Origin: Numida meleagris
Lineage: Eukaryota > Chordata > Aves > Galliformes > Numididae
Length of the DNA stretch: 64,000 nucleotides
Assembly (NCBI RefSeq): GCF_002078875.1
Contig: NC_034409.1
Span: 13,555,111 to 13,619,110, forward strand
Reading direction: 5' to 3'
The stretch's first letter is position 1. Each line of letters begins with the position of its first letter. Shown here one piece after another: positions 56,801-58,685 of the stretch. The notes beneath the pieces were generated by a model. That model was not told the DNA's origin, ran no database searches, and saw nothing but the letters and a program-made list of their open reading frames with translations. Made by a program: the position numbers and the translations under genes.

Positions 56801-58685
56801 CTCAGCCGTGCCCCATGGCAGTGGCGGCGCTCACAGTGAGACAGCGCAGAGCAGCCGCAGTGCTCCGTCCCCATCCACCCTCCTGCAGAGGAGGATGCGG
56901 AGCAGATCGCCGTGCATCGCTCTGAGCACGGCCCTGCCGCACGCCCCTCCCTGCGCGTCCCCTGCCGGCGGGTGCCAGCAGCGCACACCGCCAGAGGCGG
57001 GCACAGCTCTGTTCCAGCAGCTCACAGCTGACATTTACACGGACATCTGACAACAGACTCGCACAGACATTTGTAACGCTCACACTTTGCTGAGTACGTC
57101 CCAAAAGGAATTCTAAATGAAATACTGAATGAGTACTGCAAAGTTTCGCTTTCCTCAGAAAGCCAAGTCCACACCAGAATAACTCCTTAAGAAGAGCTCT
57201 CCATTACATGGATATATATCTTCAGTACCCGTAAATGAACACGCTCTCCTTTTGGATAGTATTACGCTTTAAATTAGTGTTGCATAAATACCGTTACCTT
57301 TTTTGGTGAAAAACTCCTTGGAATATTTCCCCAACATAGCGTATTTTCGAGGGATTTTTCCCAGCAGTTCAATGATCAATGCTATGTGGTCTGCATTGGA
57401 GAACATTGCCAGCAAAACAGAAACATACAACAGTTTAATCAGTACGGTGCATGCACACACTAACATGGCCCGGCACAGACAGAAATAGATTGAGCCTGGC
57501 AAAAAGGCCCACGCGGCGCCCCGTGGTCGTTCCGAAAGATGCTTTCAGCAAAACCTCTTTCTCAGAACCACATCTGAGCGTCGGCCGCTACGAGCAAGTT
57601 TTGCTGCATGCTTTAAGATGTAGCAAATCGTTATTTGTCAGGAGGTTTGGGTTTTAAAGAATTAAAAGAAAAAATCAGTTTGCCCCAGATTCCCGCATGT
57701 TTTGTTTTTCAAAACTAAATTGTTGTTGCACGATTTCAGAAAATGCTCCTCAGTGGGACACGCTACCACCAGCAGCAGCAATTCCACTTCTGTCTGCATC
57801 ACGGCACCTTCCAAAAAGAAGAGGTACTACCTCTGCGATTGAAGAATTCCCGAGAATATTTTCCAGATAGAGCAAAGTGCCTTGGGATATTGCCTAGCAG
57901 CTCTATGATGTGTGCTATGTGGTCTATGAGGGAGAGAAAAAAAAGGATACGGGAGTGGAAGGGGCAGGGAAAGGATGGGATAAAAAGAAGGAAAGAAACT
58001 GGAATTAGTAAAAAATCAGAAATAGTTTCAAATCAACAATGTTTGCAGCAAATCCATGCAGAGGTTTCCAGGATCAGCAGAGCTCTGGCATCATTAGTAG
58101 CACTTAGGAACAATGAATGATGCCCACATTACCACCGCAAAGGGCATTTACAAGCAAACAAGCATGGAAATGGACAGGTATACAGATGAAAGCAGGAGTT
58201 AATTCTCATTTAAAAAAAAAATTAGTAATCGTCTAATTCCAATAAAAATACACGATGTAAACATTATTCCAGTGCCAATCTTAGAAAATACTACAAAGTC
58301 CAAATTCTACGCTTCTTTTCTAAACTAAGACGTTGTTATGCTCAGTCAGGTTTCCACACAAATGCAGTCTTACAAGAGGGGCAGTTTAATTCCTTCAGGC
58401 AGTTGTTAAGTAGATGAATATCTGCAGAAGGGAGTTTTTGCCCACCCACTGCTACTGATGGAACTTACAACTAAAAAGAAAAAAACTGTATTTATGTTCT
58501 GAAAACAATGTGTATGAACAGTTCACTCAACAACAAAAATTAAGGCCACGGTAAGCTTGCTAGAAATAGAAGGCGGAAATACACAGAAACACACAGGATC
58601 TCAAAAGGTTCGTACCTTCGTCCCTGGAATAGTCTTCACCAGAATGTGGTTCGAACAAATAATCTCCAGTTGCTAGCTCAAATGC
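53675..58685 (-). CDS. SRPK2: SRPK2, SR-protein kinase, 3' end of the gene (partial)
   Basis: Exons in transcript order: 58616-58685, then either 57831-57923 or 57298-57390, then 53675-53859. All have AG/GT borders on the minus strand and join in phase. The joined protein gives [20 protein letters not shown], the alternative 31-residue segment, and a final [18 protein letters not shown]... block ending CLRHPWLNS. These are the last parts of the kinase C-lobe of SRPK2, which phosphorylates Arg/Ser domains of splicing factors in cytoplasm and nucleus. SRPK2 is preferred over SRPK1 and SRPK3 from the terminal exon ([20 protein letters not shown]) and because KMT2E and SRPK2 are neighbours in the human genome too. 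The active-site exons lie beyond the window. Confidence 0.93.
53860..57297 (-). other. SRPK2 intron before the terminal exon
   Basis: 3.4 kb, noticeably GC-rich for an intron. It contains an old CR1 fragment at its 3' end and a CpG-rich stretch at about 56400-57010. ORFs on both strands here (up to 182 codons at 56146-56694) have no recognisable similarity and reflect high GC. Confidence 0.65.
54083..54395 (-). mobile_element. Older, diverged CR1 LINE fragment
   Basis: The left edge aatcacagaacatctaggag is a degenerate CR1 terminus. The later blocks ccttgaactccagcagctcgg, ctgggcagcctgttccatgc and tgacacagctccatgccgttccctcagg are CR1 tail sequence of a different, older subfamily than the copies in KMT2E. 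Inserted on the minus strand, sense to SRPK2. Confidence 0.8.
57298..57390 (-). CDS. SRPK2: SRPK2 alternative exon B (SRPK1-like version)
   Basis: 93 bases with acceptor ttctccaatgcag and donor gtaacg on the minus strand. Starting with two bases that complete Asp, it codes [20 protein letters not shown] then [10 protein letters not shown] and one base of Gly. The sequence is closer to the corresponding segment of SRPK1 ([22 protein letters not shown]) than to SRPK2. Same length and phase as exon A at 57831-57923, with 20 of 30 whole residues identical. It is in frame with the flanking exons whether used instead of, or after, exon A. Confidence 0.85.
57391..57830 (-). other. 440-base intron between SRPK2 alternative exons A and B
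   Basis: Separates the paired exons. On the minus strand a ctgattaaac branch-point-like sequence lies about 60 bases before exon B's acceptor. No repeat family recognised. Confidence 0.75.
57831..57923 (-). CDS. SRPK2: SRPK2 alternative exon A (SRPK2/3-like version)
   Basis: 93 bases with acceptor ctccctcatag and donor gtagta on the minus strand. Codes [20 protein letters not shown] then [10 protein letters not shown] and one base of Gly, the version found in the known SRPK2 protein as I recall it. With the Asp completed across the junction it contains the D-x6-E pair (Asp, Glu) that, in human SRPK1, forms part of the substrate docking groove. Confidence 0.93.
57924..58615 (-). other. SRPK2 intron before alternative exon A
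   Basis: About 690 bases with purine-rich plus-strand sequence at 57928-58000, i.e. a pyrimidine-rich tract just upstream of exon A on the coding strand. Nothing else recognised. Confidence 0.75.
58616..58685 (-). CDS. SRPK2: SRPK2 exon encoding [20 protein letters not shown]
   Basis: 70 bases with acceptor ttacgttatag and donor gtacga on the minus strand. 23 codons plus one base (G) that pairs with AC of either alternative exon to make Asp. [20 protein letters not shown] is the SRPK C-lobe segment following helix F. Confidence 0.94.

Follow-up and report, generated by a model that had tools for sequence, protein, structure and literature searches.

A conserved tandem exon pair encodes two versions of the docking-groove segment in vertebrate SRPK2 and SRPK1

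The SRPK2 locus of Numida meleagris raises the question of why a kinase gene should hold, one behind the other, two versions of the exon for part of its substrate-docking groove, and whether these are used one at a time. The window analysed here is the whole 64,000-nucleotide stretch of contig NC_034409.1 from position 13,555,111 to 13,619,110. A sequence-only reading of it had described two minus-strand exons of 93 bases each, in the same phase, with intact splice sites, 440 bases apart and encoding segments identical at 20 of 30 residues, and our own analysis returned the same coordinates and counts (Table 1). Each of the two (exon A and, downstream of it, exon B) is preceded by AG and followed by GT, and opens with the AC of a split Asp codon (GAC, split after the G), followed by 30 whole codons and the first base of a Gly codon; 62 of the 93 bases agree. 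That is, they are neighbouring homologous exons that agree in length and phase, a tandem duplicated exon pair. The preceding coding exon encodes 23 residues and supplies the first base of the split Asp codon. The direct repeat formed by the pair spans 57307-57392 and 57840-57925, i.e., the exon plus two bases, and a repeat search found no intron similarity between the two copies, their likeness ending at the exon edges. When neighbouring exons were joined in silico, the reading frame stayed intact with A alone, B alone, both or neither.

Table 1. Coordinates, within the window, of the exon pair and of its neighbouring SRPK2 features
Feature	Position	Strand	Basis
SRPK2 coding exon upstream of the pair	58616..58685	-	read from sequence
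Exon A, SRPK2-type docking segment, (D)+30 residues, His at the H601 position	57831..57923	-	
Exon B, alternative docking segment, (D)+30 residues, Leu at the H601/L568 position	57298..57390	-	
Last SRPK2 coding exon, ends PWLNS then stop	53675..53859	-	
Intron end before exon B, contains TGCATG (57450-57455)	57391..57460	-	
Intron start after exon B, contains ACTAAT...TAAT (57261-57278)	57261..57297	-	

Elsewhere in the window, plus-strand open frames (28460-49787), including a long proline-rich stretch at 48273-49787, converge on SRPK2; we take them to be exons of KMT2E (MLL5). An open frame on the minus strand (6631-6969) resembles what is presumably the end of a CR1-type retrotransposon reverse transcriptase.

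The C-lobe exon sequence of the gene fits SRPK2, both in the best matches of exon A and in a C-terminal tail like that of named SRPK2 models. Among solved structures, exon A best matched SRPK2 (E 6e-16; chains 2x7g and 7zkx) and exon B best matched SRPK1 (E 8e-13), in agreement with the earlier description of A as SRPK2-type and of B as resembling SRPK1. The SRPK2 chains were solved with the A-type segment alone and the SRPK1 chains with the B-type alone, so that either version is functional by itself in its own kinase. The locus thus resembles the solved proteins in that A matches the groove segment of SRPK2 and B that of SRPK1, and differs from them in that here one gene encodes both versions.

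The pair is spread widely among vertebrates, and in more than one gene. A protein search with the last three exons in their B form gave 892 proteins, of which the best 120 were listed; among 32 fetched from these, the SRPK2 models of Tasmanian devil, beaver and tilapia have A then B, and an SRPK1 model of a livebearing fish has an A-like copy then B. Exon B of the Tasmanian devil, a marsupial, is identical to that of the window at 31 of 31 positions. A second search, with a long query of which just the exon-B region counted towards the score, gave 2108 proteins, of which 120 were listed; these were ranked by exon-B similarity and hence show the spread of the pair, not the frequency of its absence. 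All 120 listed models hold two units, 113 of them being SRPK2 and 7 SRPK1 as assigned by tail sequence, and in all 113 SRPK2 models A precedes B. They come from birds, turtles, an alligator, a snake and a lizard; from frogs, a caecilian, marsupials, platypus, echidna and many placentals, including mouse (SRPK2); and, among fishes, from sharks, an electric ray, gar, paddlefish, bichir and teleosts. In 113 of the 120 listed models both units run straight on into the following exon, as a 65-residue segment, while the other seven have further sequence, between A and B (P0205, P0207, P0213 and P0223) or after B (P0209, P0214 and P0227). In the last three, all SRPK2 models, 39 to 51 additional residues separate exon B from the last exon; the long last intron may have supplied them, as further exons or as retained sequence.

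Of the seven listed SRPK1 models with the pair, six are from fish and one is from the white rhinoceros. The rhinoceros model has an A-type exon ahead of the usual B exon, the two being separated by other sequence; its first unit is A-type by sequence and in the tree described below, though Arg stands where His or Gln would be expected of A. The search for a second exon copy in other SRPK loci, which the sequence-only reading had proposed, therefore found the pair in models of both SRPK2 and SRPK1: in the models examined, both genes still hold both exons, in the same order.

The groove of SRPK kinases is located at helix alphaG and the MAPK-like insert in the portion of PMC2667211 available to us, and the available portion of PMC10878513 gives the essential docking residues as D548, D564, E571 and K615 in SRPK1 and D581, D597, E604 and K648 in SRPK2. 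(A passage of PMC11211491 pairs K648 with K604, not K615; the constant SRPK2-SRPK1 offset of 33 fits K615 as the partner.) Placed by counting with the residue numbers of PMC10878513, all four are present in the spliced A and B forms: the exon upstream of the pair supplies the D581 equivalent, the split codon D597, the swapped exon E604 and the last coding exon the K648 equivalent. D597 and E604 are the same in A and B of the window, and D and E stand at these positions in 113 of 113 SRPK2-A and 113 of 113 SRPK2-B units of the 120 listed models. The sequence-only reading had assigned the segment to the docking groove, named its Asp and Glu and proposed that a swap of the exon could retune substrate choice. 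The assignment to the groove stands, on the passages of PMC2667211 and PMC10878513 just cited, but the named Asp and Glu cannot retune substrate choice, because they are identical in both exons.

Going by the encoded sequence, the informative change is instead that of the fourth encoded residue, from His to Leu. A passage of PMC11211491 (2024), where Long 2019 is cited, gives L568 (SRPK1) versus H601 (SRPK2) as a key groove difference, leading to differing processivities. This position is the fourth residue after the Asp equivalent to D597, inside the swapped exon, and is His in A and Leu in B. Among the 120 listed models it is His in all 113 SRPK2-A units and, in the SRPK2-B units, Leu in 110 of 113 and Met in 3 of 113. 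It is Leu in 7 of 7 SRPK1-B units; among the SRPK1-A units, that of the rhinoceros has His and those of the six fish have Leu, such that a swap in fish SRPK1 would leave the fourth residue unaltered, with Leu in both. Given the His/Leu difference at 568/601, an A-to-B swap should make the SRPK2 groove SRPK1-like at that position, and may thereby alter the behaviour of the enzyme.

A tree of the exon copies bears on the age of the duplication. It held 64 chosen units (44 of them different), namely 28 B units (10 from SRPK1 and 18 from SRPK2) and 36 others (16 SRPK2-A, 5 SRPK1-A, 6 SRPK3 and 9 invertebrate or unclassified); source names back 3 of the 6 SRPK3 rows and 3 of the 9 invertebrate rows, the other rows being labelled from sequence, and none was recognised as coming from lamprey, hagfish or amphioxus. 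All 28 B units fell on one side and all 36 others on the opposite side, with support of 93/89, just below the starred threshold, and with a warning from the program that the columns are few (31). SRPK1-B and SRPK2-B are on average 80% identical, against 62-66% for A compared with B, whether within or across SRPK1 and SRPK2. The exon duplication is thus probably older than the SRPK1/SRPK2 split, a single event being the simplest reading. That split is likely to have accompanied the genome duplications of early vertebrates. The units from invertebrates and SRPK3 in the tree look like A, so that B would on the simplest reading be the newer of the two types.

A later origin would be gene conversion of SRPK2 exon B by SRPK1, or its copying from there, after the split and at least in ray-finned fish. 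Exon B is indeed closer to SRPK1 than to exon A, and six SRPK2-B rows, from teleosts and gar, group with SRPK1-B rather than with the other SRPK2-B rows (91/85, not starred). The paddlefish and bichir SRPK2-B rows, however, stand apart from SRPK1-B in the tree, and SRPK2-B of tetrapods and sharks has residues of its own after PRK (YAML or FAMS, where the SRPK1-B units compared have LI or LV). Moreover, the A-type unit upstream of B in SRPK1 of six fish and the rhinoceros means that it is the whole pair, in the same order, that the two genes have in common. We thus consider such copying improbable and favour common descent of the pair.

The sequence-only reading had also seen in the pair an old duplication under selection, and both parts of this fit what we find, with the dating as given by the tree and by the presence of the pair in both genes. 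When 31 random base changes were placed on the 90 coding bases of exon A, none of 20,000 trials kept 20 identical residues, and a stop was present in 11,767 of the 20,000. The dN/dS ratio that had been proposed as a further measure could be obtained only in half: run on A versus B, the NG86 method gave a dN of 0.26 and returned -1 (not computable) for dS, which we take as saturation of the synonymous sites. The changes between A and B thus spare the protein, and the pair is conserved across species in the 113 SRPK2 models among the 120 listed of 2108. Within these, 2 of the 31 positions of exon A and 20 of the 31 of exon B are variable, and B is identical to that of the window at all 31 positions in 46 of the 113; B is the less strictly conserved of the two, most of all in fish.

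The introns flanking B are conserved as well. A third, short protein search gave 91 proteins, of which 17 hold an SRPK2-type exon B with read-through into the intron. In the upstream flank, 10 contigs with a placental-type exon B (a label inferred from the exon variant in named placental models) match the read-through of the window at 16-18 of 23 residues, two contigs with the exon B of the window match at 22 and 23 of 23, and four in which just five residues are present match at 4 of 5; contig P0261 differs, matching at 3 of 12. Downstream of B, the read-through GNGIY is common to 10 of the 17 contigs and GNGIYATLI to 4 of the 17. Intron conservation of this kind suggests regulated splicing. 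One contig (P0276) has the exon B of the window and agrees with it at all 23 residues of the upstream flank, yet reads KKR and then a stop where the window has KKG, through either a sequencing error or a real frameshift at the exon end. Near B we picked out, after looking, TGCATG, which we take to be an Rbfox-type motif, and ACTAAT...TAAT, presumably a QKI-type bipartite motif and a candidate site. In the whole window neither is enriched, TGCATG having 37 matches against 47 expected and the ACTAAY/TAAY pattern 6 against 15. Rfam gave no match in 56800-58800.

These data also bear on whether exon B might be a relic, rarely or never used. We found no paper on a B-containing SRPK2 isoform in the literature searched, as such a relic would lead one to expect, but B is identical at all 31 positions between the window and the marsupial model, its intron flanks are conserved and the changes between A and B spare the protein; we regard a relic as very improbable. 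Exon B is, besides, already present in predicted database isoforms.

How transcripts combine the two exons is the remaining part of the question. B might be a cassette exon added after A, which would give an SRPK2 with a 31-residue insertion repeating helix alphaG. The order A then B in all 113 listed SRPK2 models, many of them NCBI isoform models, speaks for this, as does the preservation of frame on double inclusion. Yet SRPK1 normally uses B alone, two successive alphaG segments would be odd for a kinase lobe, and SRPK2 models with B only do exist: a named fish model (P0006) and a contig (P0009). Isoforms with B only would also go unseen in a database clustered at 90% identity, as this one was, provided that the longest form represents each cluster, as we presume. 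On the scale of protein models, then, one exon per transcript is seen in these two B-only SRPK2 records and in an SRPK1 contig record with the A-type unit only (P0016), and both units in 120 of 120 listed models; P0095 and P0099 begin inside exon B and are hence uninformative on upstream sequence. B-only SRPK2 was not found in any named bird or mammal, and all 120 listed long models have both A and B. An AlphaFold prediction of the A+B form (P0130, 40 rows) was too poor for its fold to be judged (mean pLDDT 47.8, pTM 0.33). Weighing these points, we find cassette use unlikely, and regulated use of one exon or the other the more likely of the two.

Mutually exclusive exons commonly, though not necessarily, have a built-in block to double inclusion. 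Here the frame is kept when both exons are included, the 440-base intron between A and B offers no obvious steric block, and no distant branch point is evident at exon B, the nearest upstream AG lying 69 bases before its acceptor. RNA pairing was unconvincing as a basis of exclusivity, since in the strongest of eight duplex tests (the A donor with the A-B intron) 9 of 200 shuffles were as low. Two nested inverted repeats (57283-57317 and 58431-58496) could pair the donor of exon B with the intron before A; their duplex energy is not unusual, 25 of 200 shuffles being as low.

Our preferred reading, to which we give roughly a two-in-three probability, is that SRPK1 and SRPK2 inherited the tandem exon pair from one ancestral gene. 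Each exon would code for one wall of the groove for Arg/Ser substrates, made up of helix alphaG and the beginning of the MAPK-like insert, with A as the default exon in the usual SRPK2 protein and B in the usual SRPK1 protein. With B in place of A, SRPK2 would still have its four essential docking residues, but H601 in the centre of the groove would become Leu and nine further residues would change, so that the groove, and probably the processivity too, would be SRPK1-like.

Pairs of tandem duplicated exons are already known, from kinases among others, and we consider the SRPK2 pair a new example, not proven to be mutually exclusive. The closest parallel is FYN (FynT/FynB; described in part of PMC9741552), likewise with tandem homologous exons touching the kinase domain. 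In that case paralogues each retain one version or the other, whereas SRPK1 and SRPK2 both retain both exons in the models examined; the FYN exons, moreover, span the SH2-kinase linker and the ATP site, and the SRPK pair a substrate docking groove. The exon 5 duplication of SNAP25 (PMC2581893, in the part available) is likewise an old duplicated exon with two mutually exclusive splice variants. SNAP25 is not a kinase, and its variants are established, whereas those of SRPK2 are here predicted from sequence. Hatje 2017 (PMC5740500) records mutually exclusive exons in human SRPK1, in a mammalian core set with losses and with absence in Glires; this cluster may be the A/B pair, the main text having one SRPK occurrence that names no exons. 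In the literature searched, outside which most subscription papers lie, we found no paper on the SRPK2 exon pair or on exon choice tied to the His/Leu groove difference.

It is usual to regard SRPK1 and SRPK2 as kinases of fixed, slightly different behaviour, with one docking-groove residue named as the cause. A broader proposal, which we put forward tentatively and at less than even odds, is that vertebrate SRPK1 and SRPK2 keep an ancestral splicing switch in which the His or Leu at the groove centre sets processivity on SR proteins, and that the difference between the paralogues is largely a changed default exon. Were both genes able to encode either groove, exon choice would give cells a means of shifting SR-protein phosphorylation, and inhibitor designs aimed at H601 would have to take isoforms into account. 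The difference between the paralogues would then be a clear case of exon choice turned gene identity, and a kinase that controls splicing would itself be tuned by splicing.
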